Of a DNA stretch of 20,670 nt, positions 4,370 through 15,408 are shown in pieces. Below the pieces are notes generated by a model. The model was not told where the DNA came from. It made no database searches and worked only from the letters and a program-made list of their open reading frames with translations. Position numbers and translations under genes: made by a program. The first letter of the stretch is position 1, and the number at the start of each line of letters is the position of its first letter. This DNA is from a virus. The DNA lies in the IMG/VR virus record IMGVR_UViG_3300010391_000192, positions 1 to 20,670 of that record. One strand, written 5' to 3'.

Positions 4370-4612
4370 GGTGCCGGGACAAGATCACCTTCCCGACGAG
4401 GGAGGCCGCCGCGCACCGAGCCAAGGCGGTCCCAGGCCGTCTACCAGTGCCCCGACTGCCGCCTCTTTCACCTGACCAAGAACGCCCAGTCCCCCGACGA
4501 CCGTACCCGCGCCGAACACGCAACCAACGTCTCCCGGGCTCACGACATCGGCCGGCACGACGCCAAGGGCAAAGCCCTCCGCCTCCGGCTCAGAAAGCGC
4601 CACCGCCCGTGA
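4366..4612 (+). pseudogene. small zinc-finger protein gene broken by a one-base frameshift
   Basis: From GTG 4366 the frame reads CRDKITFPTREAAAHRAKAV. The expected continuation, QAVYQCPDCRLFHLTKN and a basic end to TGA 4610-4612, lies in the next frame. Removing one C from the CCC run at 4431-4433 joins both halves into an 81-residue protein with one CxxC pair upstream of an H (CPDCRLFH) and the N-terminal cysteine. This matches a common small phage/actinobacterial zinc-finger layout (a cysteine then about 30 residues then CPxCxxxH). The extra base may be a real mutation or an assembly error. A programmed shift is less likely, because the CCC is not in frame as a slippery codon. It is coupled to the preceding gene by GTGA. 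Confidence 0.7.
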
Positions 4613-4867
4613 TGTTCTCCTCCCCCACCCCTCCCGCCCCGTTCCCCCTCCCCCACTCCAACCCACCCGAGTCCCCGAAGCTCCAGCTCGCCCGGCAACG
4701 CTCCCCCAACCTCGCTTCCGCTCCCCGCCCCCTCGGAGTAGCGAGAGAGCCCCGGAAGGACGCGCGGGGCCTACGTTGGATCTACGCGAGGCCGACGCGC
4801 CAGGACCCCCCGAAGGACGCCGAGGACCCCTCCGGAGATACGACACTCGCCGGGGTATCGGAAGCGA

Positions 4868-4915
4868 CCTCGCGCGCTCCACGCGCGCGAGGATCGAGCC
4901 GTTTCCGGCTCGATC
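4868..4915 (+). terminator. two adjoining strong hairpins, probable end of the accessory operon
   Basis: The first stem is CCTCGCGCG (4868-4876) with CGCGCGAGG (4884-4892), 9 bp. It is followed at once by a perfect 10-bp stem, GATCGAGCCG (4892-4901) with CGGCTCGATC (4906-4915), around a TTTC loop. They share one base, so only one may form fully at a time. TCTCA follows rather than a clear U-run. Their place about 250 bp after the last operon gene suits a termination or 3'-end processing role. A structured regulatory RNA is the alternative. Confidence 0.5.
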
Positions 4916-4962
4916 TCTCATCGCGCCTCGGGGGTCGGTACGCTCGTCTCGACCCTCCATGG

Positions 4963-5011
4963 CTCGCGGGTTTGAGCAACCGCGAGGTCAGCATCGGGAT
5001 GCGCCATGCTG
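4963..5011 (+). other. pair of further hairpins in the control region
   Basis: CTCGCGG can pair with CCGCGAG (about 4964-4987, with TT/AA pairs above a one-base bulge and a GAGC-containing loop). Right after it, CAGCAT (4989-4994) pairs with ATGCTG (5006-5011) around an 11-nt loop. Together with the two hairpins just upstream they make a 145-bp run of four stems with little unpaired spacing. This may be a compact noncoding RNA or an extended terminator. No known RNA family was recognised. Confidence 0.35.
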
Positions 5012-5103
5012 CGAGTCCTTGCCGGCGTAGGCGGGTTTCCGATCCCCCCCGGGGTCTCCGGTCGTACCCGGCGCTCGGGGCTCCACGCGGGCGATGTGAC
5101 CCC

Positions 5104-5153
5104 GGGGGGGTCGCACCTCGGGGGAGGGGGGTGCCAGGGGGGTCGAGGGGGGG
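5104..5153 (+). repeat. G-run tract, G-quadruplex candidate
   Basis: Five G-runs occur at 5104-5110, 5120-5124, 5126-5131, 5137-5142 and 5147-5153. The last four are separated by loops of 1, 5 and 4 nt, meeting the usual pattern for an intramolecular G-quadruplex on the plus strand. It lies between the hairpin cluster and the operator-like palindromes. It may affect replication, packaging or transcription, or may reflect extreme local GC skew. Confidence 0.5.
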
Positions 5154-5184
5154 TCCGGAGTCGGGGTACCCCCCGGGAGTCCGT

Positions 5185-5240
5185 GGATGATGATTTCATC
5201 CGGGGGCGCCCCTCGTCCGCTTCGTGCCATGAAATTTCAT
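5185..5240 (+). promoter_or_regulatory. AT-rich operator-like inverted and direct repeats
   Basis: ATGAAATTTCAT (5229-5240) is a perfect 12-bp palindrome. Upstream, GGATGA (5185-5190) and TCATCC (5196-5201) form a related inverted repeat. Both are continued by the same sequence, TTTCATCCGGGG (5194-5205 and 5235-5246), so they are also direct repeats about 41 bp apart, near four helical turns. Such AT-rich symmetry inside extremely GC-rich DNA suggests sites for a dimeric regulator. They lie about 90-150 bp upstream of the promoter at 5332. Confidence 0.5.
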
Positions 5241-5331
5241 CCGGGGCGTCGCCTCGCGACCCTCGGTCTCCTCCCGGCGGGGCCCTTCCCGGGTCCTCGG
5301 GGCTCTCCCCCGGACCTCGACACGATTCCTC

Positions 5332-5402
5332 TCGACATTGGGCCAAGCATGGACTAGTGATTGAGACGTAGCTCGGAGCTACGGAAAGGAACGGGAGAGA
5401 AG
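5332..5402 (+). promoter_or_regulatory. promoter-hairpin module, copy 1 (divergent copy)
   Basis: The -35 TCGACA (5332-5337) and the -10 TAGTGA (5355-5360) are separated by 17 bp. A degenerate operator GCCAAGCATGGA (5342-5353) lies inside the spacer and resembles the inverted form of the element seen in the other copies. The hairpin CGTAGC (5367-5372) with GCTACG (5378-5383) begins about where transcription should start. GGAAAGG (5383-5389) follows, then ATG 5403. The -10 is the weakest of the five, but spacing, hairpin and leader match the others closely. Confidence 0.65.
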
Positions 5403-5642
5403 ATGGTCGGAAGGAATCGGGGGAAGTTCGCGAGGGGGGTCAAGCTGACCGCGGAGGGGTTCGTCTACGTCGAGCGGCTCTCGGCGGAGGTCGAGCGCTA
5501 CTACTCGGGGGAGGTCGGGTACGAGGAGTTCGGGAGAAGGACGAGGGCGATCTGGGTGGAGATCGAGCGGAGCGGGAGGCGGAAGGGGTTGGTCCTCGCG
5601 GCGCTCCGGGAGAAGGCTCCTTACGCGGGGGCTCCGAGATGA
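5403..5642 (+). CDS. hypothetical basic protein, 79 aa
   Basis: ATG 5403 follows the shared promoter-hairpin leader and a purine-rich stretch (GGGAGAGAAG). The product is basic, starts MVGRNRGKFARGVKL and continues with helices (GFVYVERLSAEVERYYSG, YEEFGRRTRAIWVEIERSGRR, LVLAALREKAPYAG). It is soluble and without cysteines; DNA or RNA binding is possible from charge alone. Codon choice here is unusual for the window, with Gly mainly GGG and Arg mainly CGG/AGG/AGA. It overlaps the next ATG at 5639 and heads a three-gene operon. Function unknown. Confidence 0.7.
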   Translation: MVGRNRGKFARGVKLTAEGFVYVERLSAEVERYYSGEVGYEEFGRRTRAIWVEIERSGRRKGLVLAALREKAPYAGAPR

Positions 5643-5914
5643 CCGCCTACTATTCCCGGAACGGGGTCGAGGCGCTCCGGAGGGGGGAGGCGGCGGACCC
5701 GGAGAGCTACGACGTCTCCGGGGGTACGGAGGCGCGGGAGAGCTTCCGCGGGCTCCGGAAGGGCGAAGCGGTCGGGACTCTCGCGGAAGCGGAGACCCGG
5801 GCGGCCCGGATCGCCCGGGTCGCGAACGACCCCGAAGCGTTCGCGGCGGCGTTCGGCCTGGAGATCGTCGGGGCGACGGCGACCGGGTTCCGGACGCGGA
5901 GGCGCCGGAGATGA
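5639..5914 (+). CDS. hypothetical protein, 91 aa
   Basis: ATG 5639 overlaps the preceding stop (ATGA). The product starts MTAYYSRNGVEALRRGE and has a long charged middle (SFRGLRKGEAVGTLAEAETRAARIARVANDPEAFAAAFG). It ends with a strand and an arginine run (FRTRRRRR). The middle is likely helical. No family was recognised. Its stop overlaps the next ATG at 5911. The basic C-terminus suggests nucleic acid contact, though arginine runs are common in this GC-rich genome. Confidence 0.6.
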   Translation: MTAYYSRNGVEALRRGEAADPESYDVSGGTEARESFRGLRKGEAVGTLAEAETRAARIARVANDPEAFAAAFGLEIVGATATGFRTRRRRR

Positions 5915-6222
5915 CCCCGCGAGACGTCGACTACTCGGCCATGGAGGTCGGGACCCGGGTCCGGCTCCCGAAAGGGGAGATCGCGGTCTGCCCGATCTGC
6001 GGGAAGCCGGGCCTCCGGGGCGTCTACTCCTTCCGGCGGGGGAGGTACCGGATCGGGTACACGCATACCGCGGTACACGACGCGGCGGGGTTCGCTCCCC
6101 TGATGATCGACGGCTGCTCGATCGCCGCCTCGAAGCTCTCGGAGCTGCCCGCCTCCGAGCGAGCCGGGCCGCGAGGTCCGGAGCCGGACCCGGCTCGCCG
6201 CTACCGGAGACGGGGAGGGTAG
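5911..6222 (+). CDS. single zinc-ribbon-like protein, 103 aa
   Basis: ATG 5911 overlaps the previous stop. After a short acidic N-terminus (MTPRDVDYSAMEVGTRVRLPKGE) the protein has VCPICGKPGLRGVYSF (residues about 27-43), a classical CxxCG knuckle. Basic strands (RRGRYRIGYTHTAVHDA) and one more cysteine (DGCSIAASKL) follow. The C-terminus is proline/arginine-rich and probably disordered. A single zinc-ribbon or half-ribbon is likely, with an unknown target. It ends the operon started at 5403; 130 bp with the next promoter follow. Confidence 0.65.
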   Translation: MTPRDVDYSAMEVGTRVRLPKGEIAVCPICGKPGLRGVYSFRRGRYRIGYTHTAVHDAAGFAPLMIDGCSIAASKLSELPASERAGPRGPEPDPARRYRRRGG

Positions 6223-6279
6223 TGCCGGACCCGGGCCCCTCGGCATCGACGGGCCTGGTCGATTTCTGCGATTTGGGGG

Positions 6280-6351
6280 TAGACAACGGCCCTAGCTTGG
6301 CCTATCTTTGAATCGTCGGGCGAGACGCCCGAGAAAGGGAAACCAGGGAAG
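6280..6351 (+). promoter_or_regulatory. promoter-operator-hairpin module, copy 2 (amidoligase)
   Basis: The -35 TAGACA (6280-6285, five of six to TTGACA) and -10 TATCTT (6303-6308) have a 17-bp spacer. The operator CCCTAGCTTGGC (6290-6301) sits inside it. The hairpin TCGGGCG AGA CGCCCGA (6316-6332, 7-bp stem) starts 7 nt after the -10, so it would sit at the very 5' end of the mRNA. GAAAGG and a purine-rich ribosome site follow before ATG 6352. Confidence 0.75.
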
Positions 6352-7281
6352 ATGACCGAGTACATCGAGAGACGCCGGGCCCGCGCCGAGGAGACGATGG
6401 CCGCCCTGACCTTCGGAGTCGAGATCGAGACCTACGGGATCGGGATCGAGCGCGCGGCTCGCGCGGTCGCCGGGGTCCTCGGGTCGACGGACGTCCGGAA
6501 CGACGGGGGGTACTACGGGCGCTACACGGTCGGGATGGCCGACGGCCGGCGCTGGACGGTCCTCTCCGACGGGTCGATAACCGGCGGGAACGGCGCCGAG
6601 GTGGTAACCCCGATTCTCCGCGGAGACGGCGACCTGGAGACGCTCCGGGAGGTCGCCCGGGCCCTCCGCGCGGCCGGCGCGAAGTCCGACGCCGACGGCG
6701 GCTGCGGGGTCCACGTCCACGTCGGGCTCGGCCCCTTCGACATCCCGACGGTCGCCCGGGTCGCGAAGATAGTCGGGAAGTACGACGGGTTCATCCGGAA
6801 GGCGCTCGGAATCGCCCCGGCCCGCGCTCGGTGGTGCGCCCCCCTCCCCGCGGAGACCATCCACGCGGTCGGCCGGGCCCGGACCCGGGACGCTCTCGCC
6901 CGGGCCTGGTACGGGGAGCGGGACCTACGGAGCATCTCTTACCGGATCGGGACGCACTACGACGGGAGCCGCTACCACGGCCTGAACCTCCACTCCTACT
7001 TCTACACGGGCCGGGGGACGGCGGAGTTCCGGTACTTCGACGGGACCCTTCACGCCGGGAAAATCGCCTCCTACGTCCACCTCGCCCGGGCGCTCGTCGC
7101 GAAGGCGGCGACCACGAGCGGGGCGAGCGCGATTCCGGCCGAATACGACACGCTCGGGAAGGCGACCGCGCTCCTCGCGAACCTGAGCCTCGCGGGCGAG
7201 AAGTACAAGACGCTCCGGTTCCACCTCCTCGCGGCCTGGCGCCCCGAGCGCCGCGCGAACCCGGAGAGAGAGGCCGCCTAG
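6352..7281 (+). CDS. amidoligase (COOH-NH2 ligase, glutamine-synthetase fold)
   Basis: The 309-residue product has the motifs of the Amidoligase_2 family in order. These are FGVEIE (21-26), SDGSI (72-76) followed by GAEVVTP (81-87), CGVHVHVG (118-125), a YHGLNLHSYF box (N212), and TAEFRYFDGT (E225-R227). The glutamates and histidines are the expected metal/ATP ligands of the glutamine-synthetase-like core, so the enzyme looks intact. The family is proposed to join a carboxylate to an amine using ATP, making peptide or gamma-glutamyl-type amides; the substrate here is unknown. Amidoligases are known to travel with GGCT/AIG2 genes, and two such genes lie downstream under the same promoter module. 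TAGATG joins it to the next gene. Confidence 0.9.
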   Translation: MTEYIERRRARAEETMAALTFGVEIETYGIGIERAARAVAGVLGSTDVRNDGGYYGRYTVGMADGRRWTVLSDGSITGGNGAEVVTPILRGDGDLETLREVARALRAAGAKSDADGGCGVHVHVGLGPFDIPTVARVAKIVGKYDGFIRKALGIAPARARWCAPLPAETIHAVGRARTRDALARAWYGERDLRSISYRIGTHYDGSRYHGLNLHSYFYTGRGTAEFRYFDGTLHAGKIASYVHLARALVAKAATTSGASAIPAEYDTLGKATALLANLSLAGEKYKTLRFHLLAAWRPERRANPEREAA

Positions 7282-7611
7282 ATGCCCCTCCCCCCGAGCG
7301 GCCCGGGCCCTCCCGGCTACGTCGAGTACCGGTTCCGAGACGACCCCCGGACGATCCGGGGCTTCGACGCGTCCGACGTCGTCGCGACCCTCCGGCTCCG
7401 GGTCGCGGTCGGGTTCCCTTCCGAGCTGGCCGAGGGCCCCCTCGGGCCCTTCTGCGCCGCCTTCTCCGCCCGCTCCGGCGCTCCGTACGTCGACCCGGGC
7501 CTCCCGGACCACCTCGCCGCCGCGGCGCTCCTCCGCTCCCTGGAGAGCGTCGGGATCGCCGCTCGGGTTGGCCCCGGCCGACTCCGGATCGTCGAGAGGA
7601 AACGGAAGTGA
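7282..7611 (+). CDS. hypothetical protein coupled to the amidoligase, 109 aa
   Basis: ATG 7282 follows the amidoligase stop without a gap (TAGATG), so the two are almost certainly co-expressed. The N-terminus is proline/glycine-rich. A strand YVEYRFRDDPRTIRGFDAS follows, then VVATLRLRVAVGFPSELAEGPLGPF and a helix (DHLAAAALLRSLESVGIAARVG) before the basic end. The alpha/beta pattern may be a small ferredoxin-like fold. No family was recognised. Position suggests a partner or accessory of the amidoligase, an inference from gene order only. Confidence 0.65.
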   Translation: MPLPPSGPGPPGYVEYRFRDDPRTIRGFDASDVVATLRLRVAVGFPSELAEGPLGPFCAAFSARSGAPYVDPGLPDHLAAAALLRSLESVGIAARVGPGRLRIVERKRK

Positions 7612-7615
7612 TCCC

Positions 7616-7683
7616 TTTACTTAGCCCAAGCTAGGGCCTATACTCTGAGCGTGGCCTCCGAGCCACGGAAAGGAACGAGAAAG
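7616..7683 (+). promoter_or_regulatory. promoter-operator-hairpin module, copy 3, operator inverted
   Basis: The -35 TTTACT (7616-7621) and a strong -10 TATACT (7639-7644) are 17 bp apart. The spacer holds CCCAAGCTAGGG (7625-7636), the exact reverse complement of the operator at 10247-10258. The hairpin CGTGGC (7650-7655) with GCCACG (7662-7667) starts 5 nt after the -10. GGAAAGG (7667-7673) lies 10 nt before ATG 7684. The -35 starts only four bases after the preceding stop. Confidence 0.75.
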
Positions 7684-7974
7684 ATGCCACGCCCCCCAGC
7701 TACCGGGCCGCCCCGGAGACTCGTCGGCGCGCTCCGCGCCGCCGCCCGCTACGGAGGCTTCCGCGCGCTCGACGGCCCCTTCGTCGCCGGAACGAACGCC
7801 CCGCCCGGAGTCGCGCCCTACCGGCTCGGGTACGCCCGGGCCCTGGTCCGCGCCGGCTACGCGACGCTCGGACGCGACGGGACCTACGCCCTGACGCCGA
7901 CCGGGGTCATCACCGCCATCACGCTCGGGATCCCCATCGGGGACACGGGCGCGCTGCCCGCGGGCCTCGGATGA
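7684..7974 (+). CDS. possible winged-helix protein, 96 aa
   Basis: ATG 7684 is set by the promoter leader; an earlier GTG at 7651 lies inside the hairpin and is rejected. After a basic start (MPRPPATGPPRRLVGALRAAARYGG), residues 55-80 read YARALVRAGYATLGRDGTYALTPTGV. This resembles the recognition helix plus wing of winged-helix proteins (x-L-x-x-x-G-[YL]-[AL]-T... Y-x-LT-x-x-G). If so, it might bind DNA. Being the only gene with an exactly inverted operator in its promoter makes autoregulation conceivable. The fold call is by pattern only. Its stop overlaps the next ATG at 7971. Confidence 0.6.
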   Translation: MPRPPATGPPRRLVGALRAAARYGGFRALDGPFVAGTNAPPGVAPYRLGYARALVRAGYATLGRDGTYALTPTGVITAITLGIPIGDTGALPAGLG

Positions 7975-8168
7975 AGGTCCACCTCCACGCCATCACGGCG
8001 GCGCAGGCAGCCCGAATCGTCGCGAAGGTCCGAGCGCTCGGCTACGACTCCGCGGTGCTCGACGACACGCACGTCGCGGTCGAGACCGAGTCGCGCTCCA
8101 CGCTCTTTCGCCAGGTCTACGACGACCCCGAGCTGCGAACGCTCGTCCTGTTCGGAGAGCTGCGATGA
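7971..8168 (+). CDS. hypothetical protein, 65 aa
   Basis: ATG 7971 overlaps the preceding stop (ATGA). The product begins with a strand (MKVHLHAI), then a helix (AAQAARIVAKVRALGYD), two strands (SAVLDDTHVAVETES) and a short helix before a final strand (RTLVLFGEL). The beta-alpha-beta-beta pattern suggests a small ferredoxin-like or ACT-like fold. No family was recognised. It is coupled to the next gene by ATGA at 8165. Confidence 0.6.
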   Translation: MKVHLHAITAAQAARIVAKVRALGYDSAVLDDTHVAVETESRSTLFRQVYDDPELRTLVLFGELR

Positions 8169-8413
8169 CGATCTTCGAGGTCGCCAAGCGACTCGACGAC
8201 GTGCTCCGTGCCTACTGGCGCGTCGATGGTTGGTCCTCCAGGGTCGAAGACGTCTACCGAATCGACGTCTCGAAGACGGCCGGGACCGTCACGGTGGTCT
8301 TCCTCCGAAAGAGTAGGGCGTTGCCCGGTCTTCGCGCGACGATCGAAATCTTCAGGGCGACGGCGCCTGCCGACGTTGCCATCGAGCTGCGGGAGCCGGT
8401 CTCGTTGCCGTAA
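8165..8413 (+). CDS. hypothetical protein, 82 aa
   Basis: ATG 8165 overlaps the previous stop. It begins with a helix (IFEVAKRLDDVLRAYWRV), followed by strands (VYRIDVSKTAGTVTVVFLRK, RATIEIFRATAPADVAIEL). There are no cysteines. The alternation of strand pairs after one helix suggests a small beta-sheet protein. No family was recognised. It ends with TAA 8411-8413, which overlaps a possible -10 of the following ParB-Mom leader. Confidence 0.6.
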   Translation: MTIFEVAKRLDDVLRAYWRVDGWSSRVEDVYRIDVSKTAGTVTVVFLRKSRALPGLRATIEIFRATAPADVAIELREPVSLP

Positions 8414-8452
8414 TGGTCTCCGCGAGGCATCCTCGCGCGTGGAGGTCGCCGA
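8411..8452 (+). promoter_or_regulatory. possible leader hairpin before the ParB-Mom genes
   Basis: CGCGAGG CAT CCTCGCG (8421-8437) is a perfect 7-bp hairpin. It is followed by GGAGG (8441-8445) and ATG 8453. TAATGG (8411-8416) lies four bases upstream and could be a -10, but no -35 or operator is seen. The hairpin-then-ribosome-site layout resembles the five promoter modules; it may be a diverged member or only an intercistronic hairpin. Confidence 0.4.
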
Positions 8453-9043
8453 ATGGATTTCTCGATTCACCGTCCCGTCATGGTCGACGCGGCGAAGCTG
8501 AAGCCCGCCCCGTACAACCCGCGACGGATCAGCCGACAGCAGCTCGACGCGCTAAAGGCGAGCATCGCTCAAAACGGCTTCGTCGAACCCGTGGTTGCTC
8601 AGCGCGGGACGCTGGTGCTCATCGGCGGACATCAACGACTCGAAGCGCTTCGCCAGCTCTGCCGCGACGCGAACGAGAAGCTCCCGAAGATCCCCGCGGT
8701 CCTGCTCGACGTCGACGACCGCCGCGCTCGCCTGATGAACGTCGCCCTGAACCGTATCGACGGCGAGTTCGACGACGCGCTGCTCGGGAACCTGCTCTCC
8801 GGCCTCGGAGAGATCAGCGCGGTGGAGCTGCTCGGGACCGGACTCTCCGATATCGAGGTCGCCGCGCTGCTCGTTCCGGAGCTACCGGAGAACGAGACGA
8901 CCACGTTCGGGCAGAGCGTGACGCTGACCGTCCGGTTCGACACGGTCGAGGAACGCGACGCCGCGAAGGCGCTGCTCAGCGAACGGGCGCAGCGAAGCGG
9001 GAAGAAGGCGAGCGTCGTTCTTCGGGACCTTCTCGGCTCGTGA
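8453..9043 (+). CDS. ParB/sulfiredoxin-like nuclease-fold protein, first copy
   Basis: The 196-residue product has the ParB N-terminal fold in residues 1-75. KLKPAPYNPRRIS is followed by QQLDALKASIAQNGFVEPVV, then LVLIGGHQRLEALRQL. The GGHQR box is the CTP/phosphate-binding or catalytic signature of this superfamily. A C-terminal part of about 110 residues lacks the usual partition DNA-binding helices and includes TVRFDTVEERDAAKALLSERA. Phage ParB-fold proteins of this type occur beside DNA methylases and other modifiers rather than acting in partition. It overlaps a second ParB-fold gene (GTGA at 9040), which overlaps the Mom gene, so the three form a unit. GGAGG sets the start. Confidence 0.85.
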   Translation: MDFSIHRPVMVDAAKLKPAPYNPRRISRQQLDALKASIAQNGFVEPVVAQRGTLVLIGGHQRLEALRQLCRDANEKLPKIPAVLLDVDDRRARLMNVALNRIDGEFDDALLGNLLSGLGEISAVELLGTGLSDIEVAALLVPELPENETTTFGQSVTLTVRFDTVEERDAAKALLSERAQRSGKKASVVLRDLLGS

Positions 9044-9552
9044 CCGCGCCGTCGATCCGTACCGAGCTTCGGAGCGTCTCCGCGCTCTCGAACGATCCGA
9101 GGAACGCGCGGAAGCACGACAAGCGGAACCTCGACGCGATCGGCGAGAGCCTGCGCAGATTCGGGCAGCAGAAGCCGATCGTCGTCGACGACGCCGGGGT
9201 GGTGATCGCCGGGAACGGAACCCTCGAAGCCGCTCGTCGACTCGGCTGGACGACCATCGCCGCGGCGATCACGACGCTCTCGCCCGAGCAGGCTCGCGCG
9301 TTCGCGCTCGCGGATAACCGAACGGGCGAGCTTTCGGACTGGGACCGAGACCTTCTCGGCAGCGAGCTGATCGCGCTCTCGCAGGCCGACGTGGATCTCA
9401 AGCCGCTCGGCTGGACGGACTTCGAGCTGGAAGCACTCCTCGGCGTTCCGGACTTCGGACCCGAGACGGAAATCCCTCGACTCGATCAACTGGAGCCGAT
9501 CGTCTGCCCGAACTGCGGGCACAAGATCGTGCGGAACGATGGCGACTGGTGA
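9040..9552 (+). CDS. ParB/sulfiredoxin-like nuclease-fold protein with C-terminal zinc knuckle, second copy
   Basis: GTG 9040 overlaps the previous stop. Residues 1-70 carry the ParB pattern: NDPRNARKHDKRNLDAIGES, RRFGQQKPIVVD and GVVIAGNGTLEAARRLGW. GNGT replaces the GGHQR of the first copy. ALADNRTGELSDWD and a helical stretch follow. The last 20 residues have CPNCGHKIV, half of a zinc ribbon, absent from copy one. The GNG variant is typical of ParB-fold domains linked to phage DNA methylases and modification proteins. The Mom gene starts inside its 3' end (ATG 9539, 14-base overlap), implying strong translational coupling and a joint role in DNA modification. Confidence 0.85.
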   Translation: MTAPSIRTELRSVSALSNDPRNARKHDKRNLDAIGESLRRFGQQKPIVVDDAGVVIAGNGTLEAARRLGWTTIAAAITTLSPEQARAFALADNRTGELSDWDRDLLGSELIALSQADVDLKPLGWTDFELEALLGVPDFGPETEIPRLDQLEPIVCPNCGHKIVRNDGDW

Positions 9553-10207
9553 CCTCCGGATCGCGCCCTGCTCGCACGCCGCGGCGGACTTCGCGGTGAA
9601 GACCTGGCACTACTCGCGCTCGATGCCGATCGGGAAGATCGCGAAGTTCGGAGTCTGGGAAGCGGGGAAGTTCGTCGGCGCCGTGCTGTTCGGTCGCGGA
9701 GCGTCGCCGCCGATGTACCGGAGCATCGGTCTCCGACAGACCGAGCTGGTCGAACTGGTTCGCGTCGCGCTCGCGTCGCACGAGACTCCGGTGAGCCGCA
9801 TCCTCTCGATCACGCTTCGGCTCCTTCACCGATCGAACCCCGGGCTCCGCGCCGTCGTCTCGTTCGCGGACATGCGGCAGGGTCACGTCGGCGGCATCTA
9901 CCAGGCGAGCGGCTGGATCTACACGGGGTCGAGTCGATCGAAGTTCTTCCGGATCAACGGCCACTGGCGGCAGAGTCGCGCGGTCGCGGGCAAGTACGGA
10001 ACGAGCACGCTCGACGTCCTTCGTCGGAGAGTCGACCCGGACGCGGAGATGGTGGTCTCGGAGAAGCACCGCTACTTCTGGCTGTTCGATCCCGCGCTCC
10101 GCCCCAAGTTCGAGGCGCTTCGTAGACCGTATCCACGCGATGGCCGGAGTGGCCGGCCCGGGGGACCCCCCTCGGAGGACGTTCGACCCGATCCCATCGC
10201 TCCGTAA
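9539..10207 (+). CDS. Mom-family DNA adenine modification protein
   Basis: Residues 1-185 match Mom-family proteins, the GNAT-like fold enzymes that in phage Mu add a carbamoylmethyl group to adenine N6. Marks are LRIAPCSHAAADFAVKTWHY (1-24 region), KIAKFGVWE, FVGAVLFGRGA, a QTELVELVRVAL core strand/helix, ETPVSRILSITLRLL, VSFADMRQGHVGGIYQASGW and the YWLFD end near residue 183. The conserved H, Y and the SFAD-x-x-x-GH-x-G segment are present, so it appears active. In Mu the modification protects phage DNA from host restriction; the same is inferred here. A proline/glycine-rich tail of about 35 residues is extra and may be disordered. No separate activator gene such as com was recognised. Confidence 0.9.
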   Translation: MATGDLRIAPCSHAAADFAVKTWHYSRSMPIGKIAKFGVWEAGKFVGAVLFGRGASPPMYRSIGLRQTELVELVRVALASHETPVSRILSITLRLLHRSNPGLRAVVSFADMRQGHVGGIYQASGWIYTGSSRSKFFRINGHWRQSRAVAGKYGTSTLDVLRRRVDPDAEMVVSEKHRYFWLFDPALRPKFEALRRPYPRDGRSGRPGGPPSEDVRPDPIAP

Positions 10208-10212
10208 CTGCC

Positions 10213-10302
10213 TAGAATCATAAGCGAATTATTCCCTTGCACATGGCCCTAGCTTGGGCTATCCTTCTCTCAGGTCGCCAGACGACCGGAAAGGGAGACG
10301 AG
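10213..10302 (+). promoter_or_regulatory. promoter-operator-hairpin module, copy 4, with AT-rich upstream element
   Basis: The -35 TTGCAC (10237-10242) and -10 TATCCT (10260-10265) are 17 bp apart with CCCTAGCTTGGG (10247-10258) in the spacer. The hairpin GGTCG CCAGA CGACC (10273-10287) starts 7 nt after the -10. GGAAAGG (10288-10294) precedes ATG 10303. Just upstream of the -35, 10213-10233 is strikingly AT-rich for this genome and could act as an UP element, making this likely the strongest copy. A TTG start at 10237 is rejected because it is the -35 itself. Confidence 0.8.
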
Positions 10303-10491
10303 ATGGACAAGCCGAAAGTGAAACTGACCGGAGGCGACGGGAACGCCTTCACGATTCTGGGACGCTGCCGCAAGGCGGCGAAGCGCGCGGGCTGGGGCGA
10401 GGACCGAATCCGCGCCCTCTTCGACGAGATGACCGCCGGGGACTACGAGAACCTCCTCGCGGTCGCGATGCGAAACTTCGAGGTGGAGTGA
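10303..10491 (+). CDS. hypothetical protein, 62 aa
   Basis: ATG 10303 follows the promoter-hairpin leader with GGAAAGG eight bases upstream. The product is MDKPKVKLTGGDGNAFTILG followed by a helix (RCRKAAKRAGWGEDRIRALFDEMTAGDYENLLAVAMRNF). The GGDGNAF-x-ILGR-x-x-x-A pattern recurs in many small phage and actinobacterial proteins of unknown role that precede DUF6011-type genes, as far as I recall. Its stop shares one base with the next ATG (TGATG, 10489-10493). First gene of an operon with the HARP-like and first GGCT genes. Confidence 0.75.
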   Translation: MDKPKVKLTGGDGNAFTILGRCRKAAKRAGWGEDRIRALFDEMTAGDYENLLAVAMRNFEVE

Positions 10492-11111
10492 TGTCCTACG
10501 AGAACGCACCCGCCACGATTCTCCTCGCCACCAACTGCGCCTGCTGCGGGCGACCGCTCGTCGACGCTACGAGCGTCGAGACCGGGGTCGGTCCCGACTG
10601 CCGCCGCAAGTACGGCTACGACGACGCCCAGGGTCCGCCCGACTGGCTCGCCGCGGTCGAGGCGCTCAACCCGAGGCTCGTCCCGAACCTCTTCGGGTCG
10701 GGGCGCTCCGCCACCGCGGAGTGGGGGGTCGACGCTCGCGCGGTCAGCAACCTCCTCACCCACCGGTTCGCCCTCGCGACGGACCCCGCCGAGAAGGGAG
10801 CGCTCGTCGCCGCCATCGGGTTCCTCGGGTTCACCAAGCTCGCGACGAAGCTCGCCGAGTCGGCGCTCGGCAAGGTCGAGGTACTCCCCGCGGGAGACCG
10901 CCTCGCGGTGAAGACCCCGTACCGCGCGGACTTCGTCGCCGCGCTCAAGGCGGCGCGAATCGGCGCTCGCTGGGACCGCGAGACGAAGGTCTGGACGGTC
11001 CCGGTCGACCAGCGCGCTCGCGCCGGACTCTGGGGCGCGCTCCGGGCGCACTTCGCGGGGGCTCTCCTGGTCTCCGAGCGAGGGACGACGACGGTCCCGG
11101 AGGCGGCGTAG
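10491..11111 (+). CDS. DUF6011-like zinc knuckle plus HARP-like domain protein
   Basis: The 206-residue product has two recognisable ends. Residues 12-42 contain NCACCGRPLVDATSVETGVGPDCRRKYG, which fits the DUF6011 zinc-binding pattern (CxxCG, then S-x-E-T-G-x-GPxC). Residues about 140-190 (KTPYRADFVAALKAARIGARWDRETKVWTVP with a following helix) fit a HARP-like unit, known from SMARCAL1 as binding branched or annealing DNA. A helical middle lies between. Together this suggests a phage protein acting on recombination or repair intermediates. The long upstream extension of this frame is shadow; ATG 10491 overlaps the preceding stop. TAGATG couples it to the first GGCT gene. Confidence 0.75.
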   Translation: MSYENAPATILLATNCACCGRPLVDATSVETGVGPDCRRKYGYDDAQGPPDWLAAVEALNPRLVPNLFGSGRSATAEWGVDARAVSNLLTHRFALATDPAEKGALVAAIGFLGFTKLATKLAESALGKVEVLPAGDRLAVKTPYRADFVAALKAARIGARWDRETKVWTVPVDQRARAGLWGALRAHFAGALLVSERGTTTVPEAA

Positions 11112-11522
11112 ATGGCCACCCTGGTCTTCGTCTACGGGACGCTCCGCCGCGGCGGGCGACTCCACGGCTACCACATGCGCGCCGCCGAGTTCGTCGGTCG
11201 GGGGCGCGTCTACGGGTTCGGGATGTACGACCTCGGCTCCTACCCCGCCGCGGTCCCGACCACGAACGCGACCTCGACGCTCGTCGGCGAGGTCTACGAG
11301 GTCGACGCCGAGGGGCTCGCCGCCCTCGACCAAGTCGAGGGGGTCCCCCGCTTCTACGGCCGGTCGACCGTCACGGTCGTCCTCGACAACGGCGAGACCT
11401 GCGACGCCGAGGTCTACTCGATGCCCCGCCCCCCGCGGGACTCGACCCGGGTCGCCGGAGGGGACTGGATCGCCTACGTCGGACCCCGGAAGGACGATGA
11501 TTCCCCTTGCTACTGGCCCTAG
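11112..11522 (+). CDS. gamma-glutamylcyclotransferase/AIG2-like protein, first copy
   Basis: The 136-residue product shows the GGCT/AIG2 fold. VFVYGTLRRG (5-14) is the substrate-loop motif, GMYDLGSYPAAV (37-48) follows, then LVGEVYEVD (57-65) and ALDQVEG (71-77) with E76 as the expected catalytic glutamate, and a final VYSM strand. Family enzymes release 5-oxoproline (pyroglutamate) from gamma-glutamyl amines or amides. In a phage with an amidoligase it may reverse or trim the ligase product. ATG 11112 directly follows the preceding stop (TAGATG). The last five codons and the stop lie inside the next promoter, where TAG is part of the operator CCCTAG. Confidence 0.9.
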   Translation: MATLVFVYGTLRRGGRLHGYHMRAAEFVGRGRVYGFGMYDLGSYPAAVPTTNATSTLVGEVYEVDAEGLAALDQVEGVPRFYGRSTVTVVLDNGETCDAEVYSMPRPPRDSTRVAGGDWIAYVGPRKDDDSPCYWP

Positions 11523-11574
11523 CTTGGACTACTCTCTGATCGTGGCCAGCGAGCCACGGAAAGGTAGGTTCGAG
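11507..11574 (+). promoter_or_regulatory. promoter-operator-hairpin module, copy 5, inside the end of a gene
   Basis: The -35 TTGCTA (11507-11512) and -10 TACTCT (11530-11535) are 17 bp apart. CCCTAGCTTGGA (11517-11528) fills the spacer. The hairpin CGTGGC (11541-11546) with GCCACG (11553-11558) starts 5 nt after the -10. GGAAAGG (11558-11564) is 10 nt from ATG 11575. The promoter overlaps the coding end of the first GGCT gene, whose TAG stop is read from the operator. The hairpin differs from that of copy 3 only in the loop. Confidence 0.75.
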
Positions 11575-11772
11575 ATGGACGAGTTCACGGTCGACCCCTT
11601 CGGGCGGATCGACGACCTCATCGACCGAGCGGCGCTCGGTCTCGGAATCGGGATCGACCCGGACGAGATCGCCGCGACGCTCATCGCCTCCGGCGCTCCG
11701 CGCGGGGAGGCGTTCCTCGCGGTCGCCGCGGCGAGCATCATCGAGCGAGACCGCTCGGGAGGCGCGTCATGA
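11575..11772 (+). CDS. small acidic protein between the two GGCT genes, 65 aa
   Basis: ATG 11575 is set by the promoter leader; a longer frame from 11497 runs through the promoter and is rejected. The product (MDEFTVDPFGRIDDLIDRAALG, then GIDPDEIAATLIASGAPRGEAFLAVAAASIIERD) is acidic and mostly helical, with a GxxxxEAFLAVAAA helix like those of many small phage proteins. No family was recognised. It overlaps the second GGCT gene (ATGA at 11769), suggesting a shared role or simply ribosome loading for that gene. Confidence 0.7.
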   Translation: MDEFTVDPFGRIDDLIDRAALGLGIGIDPDEIAATLIASGAPRGEAFLAVAAASIIERDRSGGAS

Positions 11773-12317
11773 GCCGCAAGCGCCGCCTCATCGTCGCCGG
11801 CAAGCCCGACGGGCGCTCGCTCGTCTTCTCTTTCGGCTCGAACCTCTCGACGGCGCAGCTCCGGGCGCGCTGCCCGGACATGACGCTCGCCTGCCCGGCG
11901 AGGCTCCCCGGGTTCCGCCTCGCCTTCGTCGGATACTCCGCTCGCTGCGGGGGCGGAGTCGCGACGCTCCGCCGAGACCCGAAGGCTTCCGCCTCGGGCG
12001 AGCTAGCCCTCCTGACCGACGCCGACCTCGCGCGCCTCGACATGTTCGAGGGGTCGCCGCAGGTCTACCGCCGGACGCAGGTCCGGGTCCGCGCTCGAAC
12101 CCCGAACGGCGACGAACGCGAGGTGACCGCCTGGACGTACCTCCGCGACGGCGACGAGTGCCCGCCCTCGCCGAGCTACATCGCCCGGATCGCCGCCGGC
12201 TACGGCCGACTCGGGTACGACGAGACGACGGTGGTCGCCGCGGTACAGATCGCGGAGAAGATGCTCTCCTTGGCGACTGCGCGCCGCGTCACCGCCGGGC
12301 CCTGGAGGGTCTATTGA
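11769..12317 (+). CDS. gamma-glutamylcyclotransferase-like protein, second copy (distinct subfamily)
   Basis: The 182-residue product has VFSFGSNLSTAQLRARCP (residues 19-36), the FGSN substrate-loop version typical of larger GGCTs. ARLPGFRLAFVG, GGVATLRRDP and GELALLTDADLARLDMFEG (77-95) follow, with E94 as the catalytic glutamate, and then YRRTQVRVRA. A 60-residue helical C-terminus (PSPSYIARIAAGYGRLGYDE and beyond) completes it. It differs clearly from the YGTLR-type first copy, so it came from a separate lineage rather than a recent duplication. Two GGCT types in one phage region suggest two different substrates, or a make-and-remove pair with the amidoligase. ATG 11769 overlaps the preceding stop. 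Confidence 0.9.
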   Translation: MSRKRRLIVAGKPDGRSLVFSFGSNLSTAQLRARCPDMTLACPARLPGFRLAFVGYSARCGGGVATLRRDPKASASGELALLTDADLARLDMFEGSPQVYRRTQVRVRARTPNGDEREVTAWTYLRDGDECPPSPSYIARIAAGYGRLGYDETTVVAAVQIAEKMLSLATARRVTAGPWRVY

Positions 12318-12931
12318 GTCTCGTCGGCGCGCGACAGTCCGAGGCACCTCGCGCGCTCGTGCGGCTCCTGGAGGCCTGGCCCGAGATTCGCGACAAGTGC
12401 TTCACCCCCGACTGCTGCCTGCACGCGACGCGCGTTCTTCTCGAAGCGTGTCGCGTTCTTCTTCCCCGCGCGACCGCTCGCCCGCTTGCCGTCGAGGTCC
12501 GTGCGGTGAACGTCGCCGGGCTCCGTCTGATCGACGCGGGGGACTTCACCGCCGAGGAGTGGATCGCGGCCGGCGCGCACATCGTCTGCTGCGGCGGGGA
12601 CCCTCAGACACCGGAGGAACGAGAGCAGCTCGCGCACCTGACCGGCTGGTCCGGGCACCTCGTCCTCGTCGTCAACGGTCGGTGGTTCGTCGACGGCTCC
12701 ACGGCGCAGATGAATCGACCGGCGAAGAATCTCCTCGTCCCGCCCATCGTGCTCACTCAAATCGCGCCCCGGCACCTGAGGGGCTGCGGATTCGCGCTGC
12801 CGTTGTCGGACGGCGGTCGGGTGGCGTACCGCGCTACCCCCGAGGTCACCGAATACGAAGACCTGCCAGGGTTTCAGCGACACGCCGTCAACCTCGAAGT
12901 GGCTCGTCGTCTGGTGGACCGTGCGGCGTAG
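12314..12931 (+). CDS. transglutaminase/papain-like protein, 205 aa
   Basis: TTG 12314 is chosen because it overlaps the previous stop (TTGA) and has GGAGGG four bases upstream; the longer frame is arginine-rich shadow. Residues 33-50 read DCCLHATRVLLEACRVLL, followed much later by GWSGHLVLVVNGRWFVDGS (111-129). C34 or C35, H115 and D127 fit the Cys-His-Asp triad order of transglutaminase-like and papain-fold proteins, which cleave or form amide bonds. A conserved-looking QMNRPAKN segment follows the Asp. I recall similar proteins of unknown function in actinobacteria. Its position after the amidoligase and GGCT genes suits a role in amide chemistry. Its stop lies inside the serine recombinase gene. 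Confidence 0.65.
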   Translation: MSLVGARQSEAPRALVRLLEAWPEIRDKCFTPDCCLHATRVLLEACRVLLPRATARPLAVEVRAVNVAGLRLIDAGDFTAEEWIAAGAHIVCCGGDPQTPEEREQLAHLTGWSGHLVLVVNGRWFVDGSTAQMNRPAKNLLVPPIVLTQIAPRHLRGCGFALPLSDGGRVAYRATPEVTEYEDLPGFQRHAVNLEVARRLVDRAA

Positions 12932-13619
12932 CTCCCCCGCCCCGACCGGCGCCGTGCTCTACGTCAGGGTCTCCACCGCTCGCCAGGCGACCGAGGGAGT
13001 CTCGCTCGAAGCGCAGGAGGCCGCCTGCGTGCGTCACGCCGAGCGGATCGGACTCCCAGTCCTCGCCGTCTTCCGCGACGGAGGCATCAGCGGCAAGGAA
13101 GAACTCGCCCATCGTCCCGGGCTCGCCGCCGCGGTCGCCGCCTGCGGCGAGCAGAAGGCGGTCCTCGTCTCCTACTCCGTCTCCCGAATCGTTCGGCGGC
13201 AGCGTCTTCTCTGGAACCTGCTCGACCCGGATGGCGAAGTCGGGCTCCGAATCTCGTCGGCGACCGAGCCGTTCGACACCAGCACCCCGATGGGTCGCGC
13301 GATTCTCGGGATGATCGGGGTCTGGAGTCAGCTCGAATCGGACATGGTGAGCCAGCGTACGCGCGACGCGCTCGCGTACGTCCGCTCGCAGGGCAAGCGG
13401 CTCGGTCGTCCACCGGAGCCGCTACCCGAGCGAACCTACAACCGCGCGTGCGTACTCCGGTTCGACTGCAAGCTCTCGTGGCGCGTCGTCGCGCAGCGAC
13501 TCACGGCCGAGGGCTACCCCGCGGCGCGCGGTGGCCTCGGACACGACCCGAAGACTCTTCGGATCGCGTTCCGTCGGATCAGCCAGGCGCAGGCATCGGC
13601 GGGAACGACTCGGTCGTGA
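12921..13619 (+). CDS. serine recombinase (resolvase/invertase-type), 232 aa
   Basis: Residues 11-150 are a resolvase catalytic domain. VLYVRVSTARQ carries the nucleophile S18 and R16. FRDGGISGKEELAHRPGL, the helix with SVSRIVRR, and TPMGRAILGMIGVWSQLESDMVSQRTRDAL follow. The usual aspartate in the D-R-L-x-R box is replaced by serine (VSRIVR), although both arginines remain. The C-terminal 80 residues (GRPPEP, then a helix-turn-helix-like RAC..FDCKLSWRVVAQRLTAEGYPAARGG) are the DNA-binding part. The size fits a resolvase or short integrase rather than a large serine integrase. A role in phage integration, dimer resolution or DNA inversion is likely; att or res sites were not found by eye. GTG 12921 overlaps the previous gene by 11 bases. 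Confidence 0.85.
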   Translation: MRRSSPAPTGAVLYVRVSTARQATEGVSLEAQEAACVRHAERIGLPVLAVFRDGGISGKEELAHRPGLAAAVAACGEQKAVLVSYSVSRIVRRQRLLWNLLDPDGEVGLRISSATEPFDTSTPMGRAILGMIGVWSQLESDMVSQRTRDALAYVRSQGKRLGRPPEPLPERTYNRACVLRFDCKLSWRVVAQRLTAEGYPAARGGLGHDPKTLRIAFRRISQAQASAGTTRS

Positions 13620-13758
13620 TCCCCGCGGCCGTCAGCGTCGCGAGGTCGTAGCGCCGCGAGTCGATGATCCGTCCGAGCGTGAACCGCTCCGACGCCCCGT
13701 TGATGGTTGCCGTTCCGGCGGTCGTGACGCGCCGCATGTAGTCGGTGATCGAGAGCAT
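13579..13758 (-). CDS. small minus-strand protein, 59 aa
   Basis: This is the only credible minus-strand gene. From the minus ATG at 13756-13758 it reads MLSITDYMRRVTTAGTATIN, then GASERFTLGRIIDSRRYDLATLTAAGI and a proline-rich end, stopping at 13579-13581. The balanced composition with Ile, Thr, Tyr and Phe contrasts with the arginine-rich shadow frames of this genome. The gene fills the only gap between the recombinase and the terminase, overlapping the recombinase 3' end by 41 bases. No Shine-Dalgarno is present. CTGACAC (plus coordinates 13769-13775) begins 17 nt before the ATG, as in two late genes. Function unknown; possibly a structural or regulatory protein. Confidence 0.55.
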   Translation of the reverse strand: MLSITDYMRRVTTAGTATINGASERFTLGRIIDSRRYDLATLTAAGITTESFPPMPAPG

Positions 13759-13785
13759 GGTCGAAAGTGTGTCAGGATCTCCCCG

Positions 13786-14547
13786 ATGCAGCAAGACGAC
13801 CCGTCCCGACGGGAAGCCTACGAGCTGGTCCTCGCGGCGCTCTCCGAGCAGGCCGACGCCGCGAGGCAGGACATCAAGGCGTTCTTCGACTGCGTGATGA
13901 GGCAGGAGCACTCGCTCACCGAGGTTCGGTGCGCCCCCCACCAACGGGTGCTGTTCGACTTCGTCGAGGCGCACCCCATGTGCGTCATCCGGCTCCCCGT
14001 CGGCACGGCGAAGACGACCTCGATGGCGGCTCTGACGCTCCACCTACTCGGGAGGGATCTCACCGGTCGAGGCGCGATCGTCTCCGCGACGCAGGCCCAG
14101 GCGATGAAGCCGCTCGGCATGGTCCGCGACTACATCGAGACGAGCCCGCACCTCCGGATGGTCTTCCCGAAACTCCGGCGCTCGCGGAGGAAGACCGACT
14201 CGTGGACAATCGGCGAGATCACGATCGAGCGTCCTCCCGGTATCCGCGACCCGAGCCTGGTCGCCGTGGGCATCGACGGTGCGATCCAGGGCGCTCGTCT
14301 TTCCTGGGTGGTCGTCGACGACATCCTCACCCGCGAGAACACGGCGACGGAGGACGGGCTCAACAAGGTCCACGAGTGGTTCGGTTCGACCGTCCTCTCC
14401 CGCGTCGACCCGGACGGCGGGCGAATCGTCATCACGAACACGCCCTGGTCGCCGCACGATCTCACCTACCGAATGGAGGAAGCGGGCTGGCCCACGCTGA
14501 CGATGGACGTGCTCGGCAACGTCACCGTCTCGAACGCCGACGACTGA
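13786..14547 (+). CDS. terL: terminase large subunit, ATPase part (cut by an in-frame TGA)
   Basis: The 253-residue product is the motor half of a phage terminase large subunit, which pumps DNA into the prohead. Marks are HQRVLFDFVEAHP (52-64), Walker A RLPVGTAKTTS (69-79), SATQAQAMKPLG (100-111), Walker B LSWVVVDD (172-179) and the coupling motif ITNTPWSPHDL (216-226). The usual Walker B acidic pair is D178-D179 rather than DE. It ends at a single TGA (14545-14547) while the same frame continues into the nuclease half. AGGA (13774-13777) lies eight bases before ATG 13786. No small-subunit gene was recognised in the window. Confidence 0.85.
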   Translation: MQQDDPSRREAYELVLAALSEQADAARQDIKAFFDCVMRQEHSLTEVRCAPHQRVLFDFVEAHPMCVIRLPVGTAKTTSMAALTLHLLGRDLTGRGAIVSATQAQAMKPLGMVRDYIETSPHLRMVFPKLRRSRRKTDSWTIGEITIERPPGIRDPSLVAVGIDGAIQGARLSWVVVDDILTRENTATEDGLNKVHEWFGSTVLSRVDPDGGRIVITNTPWSPHDLTYRMEEAGWPTLTMDVLGNVTVSNADD

Positions 14548-14586: not shown

Positions 14587-15408
14587 GTGTACCGGCTAGC
14601 GAGACACGCCGAGGCGCTTACCGATCGTGGCGAGGTCTCCGAGGAAACGGTCCCGCTTTGGCCCTGGCGCTACGATTGGACCCGGATCGAAAAGCTCCGA
14701 CAAGACAACTTGCCGGTTCACTTCAACCAGCTCTACCTCTGCATCTGCCGCGACGATAAGTCGGCGCGCTGCAAGCAGGAGTGGATCGACGGCTGCAAAA
14801 AGAACGGCATGGGCGAGTCGCTCGTTCATCTCGCGTCGGGAACGAACGCGACGTTCACGGGGCTCGACCTCGCGGTCGGCAAGGGCGCGCAGTACGACGC
14901 GACGGCGTTCTTCACGTTCGAGCAGCTCCCGGACGGCAAGCGGCGAATCCTCGACATCGAGTTCGGGCAGTGGGACGGCCCGACCATCGTCGGCAAGGCG
15001 AAGGACAAGGCCGAGCGCTACAAGAGCGTGATCCGCGTCGAGAACAACGCCGCGCAGCAGTACATCGTCCAGTTCATGCGCGCGATGAACGCGAGCATCC
15101 CCGTCCGAGGGCACGCGACGGGACGGAACAAGGCGCACCCCGAGTTCGGCGTCGAGGGTCTCTTCATCGAGCTTCGGAACGGCGCCTGGATCATCCCCTG
15201 CGATTCCCGCGGGCGCTGTCACTCGGCCGTCGACGAGTTCATCAAGAACTGCCTGTACTACCAGCCGGGCGAGCACACGGGAGACGTGCTGATGGCCGCG
15301 TGGCTCGCGCGCGAGCAGGCGCGCGAGTTCGGCATGGCCGCGGGGCGTCCCGTGCTCAGCGCGGTGAACAAGGTCGCCGATCTGGCGAAGAGTCTGCTCG
15401 CACGATAG
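14587..15408 (+). CDS. terL: terminase large subunit, nuclease part
   Basis: This is the C-terminal nuclease half of the same terminase, in the same frame as the ATPase half. The RNase H-like core shows GLDLAVGKGAQYDATAFF (first aspartate), then FGQWDGPTIVGKAKDKAERYKSV, RVENNAAQQYIVQF (glutamate) and AVDEFIKNCLYYQPGEHTGDVLMAAWLA (final acidic cluster). These are the expected metal-binding positions for cutting concatemers. The first possible separate start is GTG 14587, which has no good ribosome site. The 13 codons between the TGA and this GTG also look like terminase sequence. Expression therefore may need read-through, reinitiation, or a corrected stop. Confidence 0.85.
   Translation: MYRLARHAEALTDRGEVSEETVPLWPWRYDWTRIEKLRQDNLPVHFNQLYLCICRDDKSARCKQEWIDGCKKNGMGESLVHLASGTNATFTGLDLAVGKGAQYDATAFFTFEQLPDGKRRILDIEFGQWDGPTIVGKAKDKAERYKSVIRVENNAAQQYIVQFMRAMNASIPVRGHATGRNKAHPEFGVEGLFIELRNGAWIIPCDSRGRCHSAVDEFIKNCLYYQPGEHTGDVLMAAWLAREQAREFGMAAGRPVLSAVNKVADLAKSLLAR

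Follow-up and report, generated by a model that had tools for sequence, protein, structure and literature searches.

The question raised by this locus is why a phage would set the same kind of leader in front of at least five of its operons. The DNA concerned is a whole IMG/VR virus record, IMGVR_UViG_3300010391_000192 (20,670 bases, hereafter the window; 68.7% guanine plus cytosine (GC)), and between positions 5332 and 11574 it carries five leaders in which promoter hexamers with a palindrome in their spacer are followed by a hairpin, a ribosome site and an ATG. This layout is real, is conserved in close relatives and lies far above chance expectation.

Anatomy of the five leaders

All five leaders are on the plus strand, with the -35 and -10 hexamers 17 base pairs (bp) apart in each. 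In leader 1 (5332-5402), whose hexamers are weak (TCGACA/TAGTGA), the palindrome GGGCCAAGCATGGACT occupies 5340-5355 and is followed by the hairpin CGTAGCT-CGG-AGCTACG, GAAAGG and the ATG at 5403. Leader 2 (6280-6351; TAGACA/TATCTT) has its palindrome at 6288, the hairpin TCGGGCG-AGA-CGCCCGA and GAAAGG ahead of the amidoligase ATG at 6352, and leader 3 (7616-7683; TTTACT/TATACT) carries the palindrome at 7624 in the opposite orientation, then CGTGGC-CTCCGA-GCCACG, GAAAGG and ATG 7684. Leaders 4 (10237-10302; TTGCAC/TATCCT; palindrome at 10245) and 5 (11507-11574; TTGCTA/TACTCT; palindrome at 11515) continue with GGTCG-CCAGA-CGACC and GGAAAGG before ATG 10303, and with CGTGGC-CAGCGA-GCCACG and GAAAGG before ATG 11575, respectively. 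The perfect stems start 6, 7, 5, 7 and 5 nucleotides (nt) after the -10 in leaders 1 to 5. An earlier reading of the letters by a model (the original prediction) had given coordinates, hexamers, spacing and hairpin offsets of 5-7 nt that all match the sequence; its statement that GGAAAGG follows the hairpin holds as far as the common GAAAGG, but leader 2 has GAGAAAGG after its hairpin instead.

Because 4.9% of window positions have a perfect stem of at least 5 bp at the required offset, meeting one in five leaders out of five by chance has a probability of about 3e-7. Among 20 promoters with good hexamers, a Shine-Dalgarno sequence and an ATG in 1.1 Mb of other viral DNA, a count that excluded the distant contig L069-L071 discussed below, none carries a stem of at least 5 bp at this place, and control positions of the same 20 promoters carry one in 1 to 6 of 20.

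The spacer element, originally described as 12 bp long, is indeed shared by the five promoters but is more aptly described as an imperfect palindrome of 16 bp with the half-site GGSCCWWG (for instance GGCCCTAG joined to CTTGGGCT), reversed in copy 3 and divergent in copy 1 (GGGCCAAG joined to CATGGACT). With up to three mismatches on both strands of the window, GGCCCTAGCTTGGGC finds seven matches, against 0.67 ± 0.79 in shuffled sequence, where none of 100 shuffles reaches seven. Six of the seven lie at the promoter spacers of leaders 2-5, two promoters being matched on both strands; the seventh is a weak site at 16607, with three mismatches, away from the five promoters. The leader 1 copy, GGGCCAAGCATGGAC, has four mismatches and would not stand out alone, and it resembles the form seen in relatives, GGGCCNAGCATGGCCC. 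The frame of the palindrome is the same in the window (GGCCCTAGCTTGGGCT) and in relatives (GGCCCTTGCATGGCCC, GGGCCGAGCATGGCCC).

Since the palindrome reaches from about -27 to about -12, between the hexamers, a bound dimer should exclude polymerase. The site is symmetric, common to several promoters and overlaps the polymerase footprint, as in a repressor-operator regulon. The original prediction had proposed that one regulator blocks or activates all five promoters, and what the sequence lends to this is a single shared palindromic site, placed where a bound protein would be expected to block RNA polymerase.

One further stem lies outside the five leaders. At 8420-8467, the perfect stem CGCGAGG-CAT-CCTCGCG stands just 5' of a GGAGG ribosome site and a ParB-like gene starting at 8453, with no recognisable promoter or palindrome; it may serve an internal gene as a hairpin leader, or be there by chance.

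Hairpin pairing and conservation in relatives

Searches with the portal protein recovered several contigs (here L034, L032 and others) with portals 64-65% identical, large terminases about 70-74% identical and syntenic early genes. Loss of the spacer element and hairpin from close relatives had been named at the outset as what would speak against the layout; both are kept, at five distinct leaders, several of them before orthologous operons. The full layout is found in L034 at 717, 2532 and 4674 and in L032 at 326, and a hairpin leader without a clear palindrome in L034 at 10570, L029 at 4613, L032 at 6011 and L074 at 5402 (before the DUF6011 orthologue). The L034 leader at 2532 (about 2530-2606) precedes the amidoligase orthologue, matching window leader 2, and those at L034 4674 and L032 326 are roughly syntenic with window leader 3. 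The leader at L034 10570 stands before a DUF6011 gene; in the window, a small gene comes between leader 4 and DUF6011. In the relatives the promoter spacing is 17-18 bp and CATAGT appears as a -10; GAAAGG is kept in nearly all leader copies, preceded by CAAC in relatives.

Nine distinct stems from these leaders contain 45 of 45 outer Watson-Crick pairs, compared with 18.3 ± 4.4 when arms are swapped between leaders (maximum 37 in 20,000 permutations), and each of the five pair positions is filled by two to four pair types. Neither stems nor loops have a common sequence, the loops being CGG, AGA, CTCCGA, CCAGA, CAGCGA, ACAAA, GACGCT, TCAGT, ACAAC and GAGTTT. Given 45 of 45 pairs against the arm-swap expectation, it is, on this comparative evidence, base pairing and not letters that is under conservation. 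The covariation counts against a DNA site recognised by its sequence, an antiterminator site with a fixed loop, or a fixed loop bound by a protein. A second DNA operator at the hairpin was ruled out, as nine different stem sequences serve there.

When each leader was folded together with 40 nt of coding sequence, the stem was the dominant structure in the predicted folds, starting 5-8 nt after the predicted -10 across the ten leaders of window and relatives. In these folds the ribosome site has a mean unpaired probability of 0.51-0.93 and the AUG one of 0.41-0.81. Transcription is predicted to start some 7 nt downstream of the -10, either at the stem or no more than one or two bases from it, which agrees with the earlier proposal that the mRNA would start with the hairpin.

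The two elements appear to have been exchanged independently. L034 around 4674 and L032 around 326 are almost identical in DNA over some 330 bases, and match exactly in the 101 bases leading up to the palindrome and in 21 bases counted from its first base; immediately past the -10 the two part, each continuing into a hairpin and a gene of its own. As read from this pair of contigs, the hairpin goes along with the gene while the palindrome stays with the promoter, and each arrangement retains a predicted paired 5' end. Such a break is what selection for a paired 5' end, and not for a sequence-specific site, would predict. Palindrome and hairpin can be regarded as separable modules, because the relatives' DUF6011 leader has a hairpin without a clear palindrome.

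A profile of the ten leaders, run over viral DNA, both related and unrelated, amounting to about 0.75 Mb, gave good scores only for the known copies; as the training copies match by construction, this result means merely that no further copies were found. None of these leaders was found in more distant relatives (terminase 45-57% identical; a 57% GC contig behind L054). Among 2.9 million viral contigs, the exact window palindrome and leader matched one other contig (L004), with the site elsewhere relative to the promoter, and a looser palindrome form gave 46 matches, none with window-like layout and base composition; both results were taken as chance. The form GCATGGCCCATA gave 15 matches, of which three are the known relatives and the others, apart from L050, were likewise taken as chance. 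L050 (IMGVR_UViG_2808606645_000003, 11677-11731, minus strand) has TTGCAA, 17 bp, CATACT, the hairpin CGGCGC-AGAACA-GCGCCG, GAAAGG and ATG, but its palindrome is poor and the part examined holds no homologues of window genes; this may be a leader of the same kind in an unrelated phage.

Proposed regulation, alternatives and known systems

On balance we lean towards a picture in which a phage-encoded dimeric repressor occludes the promoters and a 5'-terminal stem-loop, acting by structure only, protects the mRNA. A two-module control cassette would then serve the non-structural operons of the phage. Its DNA module would be a sigma70-type promoter with the 16-bp imperfect palindrome in the spacer, and a homodimeric, phage-encoded repressor covering that palindrome would deny RNA polymerase access to the whole set of five, holding the promoters silent during lysogeny or turning them off at a later stage of infection. 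As the window encodes a serine-recombinase integrase, the phage may plausibly be temperate and so carry a repressor. In the RNA module, transcription would begin approximately at the base of the 5-7 bp stem-loop, and the base-paired 5' end would hinder 5'-end-dependent decay of the RppH/RNase E type, or the host's equivalent, while the stem-loop would leave the GAAAGG ribosome site and the AUG largely unpaired. The five-promoter set can probably be switched together and its messages protected. For the hairpin, mRNA protection combined with insulation of the ribosome site appears to be the most likely role; protection is put first because paired 5' ends hinder RppH and RNase E, the T7 phi10 leader folds alike and the ribosome site is mostly unpaired in the predicted folds. 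In E. coli, 5' secondary structure blocks both RppH and RNase E (reviewed in PMC3997798).

Several points weigh against this picture. The +1 positions are predictions from the -10, and the decay enzymes are assumed to be of the E. coli type, which may not be that of the host. The -35 hexamers are weak (TTGC.. in many) and could fit an activator, and ribosome-site accessibility is only moderate in leaders W4, R2, R4 and R5. The covariation test uses stems delimited by hand; RNAalifold missed the hairpin when run on an automatic alignment, in which MAFFT had set the variable stems out of register, and a padded alignment was likewise misaligned and not used. Among the window proteins scanned, none matched a helix-turn-helix regulator and no repressor gene was found. 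The 96-aa product of the gene at 7684 has a winged-helix-like order of elements, but its structure model (predicted local distance difference test score 59; best Foldseek E 0.03) is too low in confidence for it to be named as the regulator.

The weak -35 boxes (TTGC.., TCGACA, TTTACT), together with CATAGT as a -10 in relatives, are what an activator would explain: a phage- or host-encoded protein binding the palindrome would offset them, and the five operons would form an activated middle-gene regulon. MerR-type spacer activators, however, work where the spacer is long (19-20 bp). All five window copies have 17 bp between the hexamers, and the relatives 17-18 bp, so that the MerR-type combination of a 19-20 bp spacer and a central dyad is absent, and the palindrome sits between the hexamers, where a bound protein would normally be expected to collide with polymerase. 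We regard activation as unlikely. Ownership of the palindrome by a host regulator, such as a stress-response repressor, would make the regulon inducible by the state of the host, and two genome scans without terminase relatives leave some room for it; yet the palindrome drifts between phages in step with their relatedness (GGCCCTAGCTTGGGC against GGCCCTTGCATGGCCC), and other viral contigs match its core without the layout, which makes a host regulator quite improbable. The hairpin might also act mainly in translation or as the target of a protein (antitermination, put-like, or a phage translational regulator) rather than in stability. Its place directly before the ribosome site and the near-universal GAAAGG, with CAAC before it in relatives, would suit such a role, but loops and stems have no common sequence, unlike boxB- or MS2-type sites, and the ribosome site lies outside the stem in the predicted folds; we hold this to be somewhat unlikely.

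If the preferred combination of repression and mRNA protection is correct, how does it relate to described systems? The nearest described cassette is the extended start-associated sequence and start-associated sequence (ESAS/SAS) of cluster K mycobacteriophages, to which the window cassette is similar in spirit without being a member. In Adephagia and TM4, ESAS/SAS cassettes recur in intergenic regions before non-structural genes, at orthologous genes, and consist of a SigA-like promoter (17-18 bp), an inverted repeat, a start-site motif at the ribosome site and the ATG (PMC3203893, PMC11373665). The window likewise repeats a promoter, an inverted repeat and a shared ribosome-site element at orthologous genes. 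However, the repeat arms of the seven Adephagia ESAS elements include the hexamers (TTGACATGCATACAG ... CTGTATGCATGTCAA), whereas the window palindrome lies between the hexamers, with arms that do not contain them, and is followed by a distinct hairpin that covaries. The seven Adephagia leaders showed no hairpin immediately following the -10, and changes in the ESAS repeat are reported not to support RNA pairing (PMC3203893). The SAS 13-mer GGGATAGGAGCCC, with up to two mismatches, matches the window once, inside a gene, against 0.87 expected, which is no enrichment. Differences in the arms, the hairpin and the 13-mer set the window cassette apart from ESAS/SAS.

The hairpin itself recalls the 5'-terminal stabilising stem-loops of E. 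coli ompA and papA and of T7 phi10, in which a stem-loop at or next to the +1 (predicted here) is followed by an unstructured ribosome site; the T7 phi10 and phi9 leaders fold with a 5'-terminal stem. In the window group, by contrast, the structure recurs in ten leaders with its letters free and is coupled to a sigma70-type promoter and a shared palindrome. Multi-operator phage immunity regulons (L5 stoperators, P1 c1 operators, the P22 Arc site in P-ant) resemble the window in repeating a short site at several promoters of one phage, and Arc binds between the -35 and -10. The L5 stoperators are asymmetric 13-mers scattered along the genome (PMC9283540, PMC3203893), whereas the window site is palindromic and almost only at promoters. 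Multi-operator regulons and 5' stabilising stem-loops are thus each known, and their joint, repeated and covarying cassette appears undescribed in the literature searched, most subscription journals lying outside it. The earlier claim that no described element has the full layout stands within that scope, with ESAS/SAS and the T7 phi10 5' hairpin as near analogues.

A parallel case may be the distant contig IMGVR_UViG_3300031965_000025 (L069-L071), which has amidoligase and AIG2-like genes in common with the window. Its seven leaders have a TTGAC promoter, shared spacer letters C.ACAA, a hairpin soon after the -10, a ribosome site and an ATG; the spacer element is a different one and not palindromic, and the hairpin letters are conserved (GGCCC..ATGA..GGGCC), starting about 7-12 nt after the -10. 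We infer that these leaders follow the same plan. Tentatively, and with some doubt, we suggest a portable cassette in which an operator within the promoter and a structure-only 5' hairpin leader are joined yet exchanged independently, so that genes moving between phages would bring their own stabilising hairpin and join a common switch, the L069-L071 phage having reached the same plan with a different switch.

If true, 5'-terminal hairpins selected for pairing across phage operons would argue strongly, on evolutionary grounds, that it is important to phages to block 5'-end-dependent mRNA decay. In uncultured phages the cassette would also make co-regulated operons easy to recognise; it would help to resolve the role of comparable start-site cassettes such as ESAS/SAS, and the natural leaders with their different stems would offer a ready set for testing how 5' structure sets mRNA lifetime.

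The operons and their neighbourhood

The window is a tailed-phage fragment, probably of a temperate phage, because its right half carries terminase, portal, head morphogenesis and serine-recombinase integrase genes. The portal matches that of the nearest annotated phages at only 26%. Two scans of genome contigs gave no terminase relatives (prophages); an Rfam search of the window gave no match above the gathering score, and a tRNA search of it found none.

Genes in the middle of the window encode amidoligase, ParB-like, Mom-like, DUF6011 and gamma-glutamylcyclotransferase-like proteins. All five operons are on the plus strand. Operon 1 (5403-6222) encodes three small proteins with no family match, operon 2 (6352-7611) the amidoligase (PF12224) and a 109-aa protein, both kept in L034, and operon 3 (7684-8413) the 96-aa protein and two small proteins. 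Operon 4 (10303-11522) comprises a 62-aa phrog_1933 protein, a DUF6011 protein and an AIG2-like (GGACT) protein, and operon 5 (11575-12931) a 65-aa protein, a gamma-glutamylcyclotransferase-like protein and an uncharacterised protein. The amidoligase, AIG2-like and gamma-glutamylcyclotransferase-like genes (6352-12317), spread across three of the five operons and kept in relatives, likely form a peptide-ligation and gamma-glutamyl pathway. A pair of ParB-like genes in tandem, with a Mom-like DNA-modification gene after them (8453-10207), is not directly preceded by any of the five leaders and possibly constitutes a DNA-modification module.

The large terminase occupies two open reading frames (13531-14547 and 14587-15408) that match consecutive parts of phrog_38. 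In relatives it also matches in two pieces with the same small gap, the second part being interrupted further in L054; either two separate genes or a conserved split may lie behind this. Immediately 5' of leader 1, a GC-rich stretch of about 1 kb (4370-5330) without a convincing gene is a possible origin or regulatory region.

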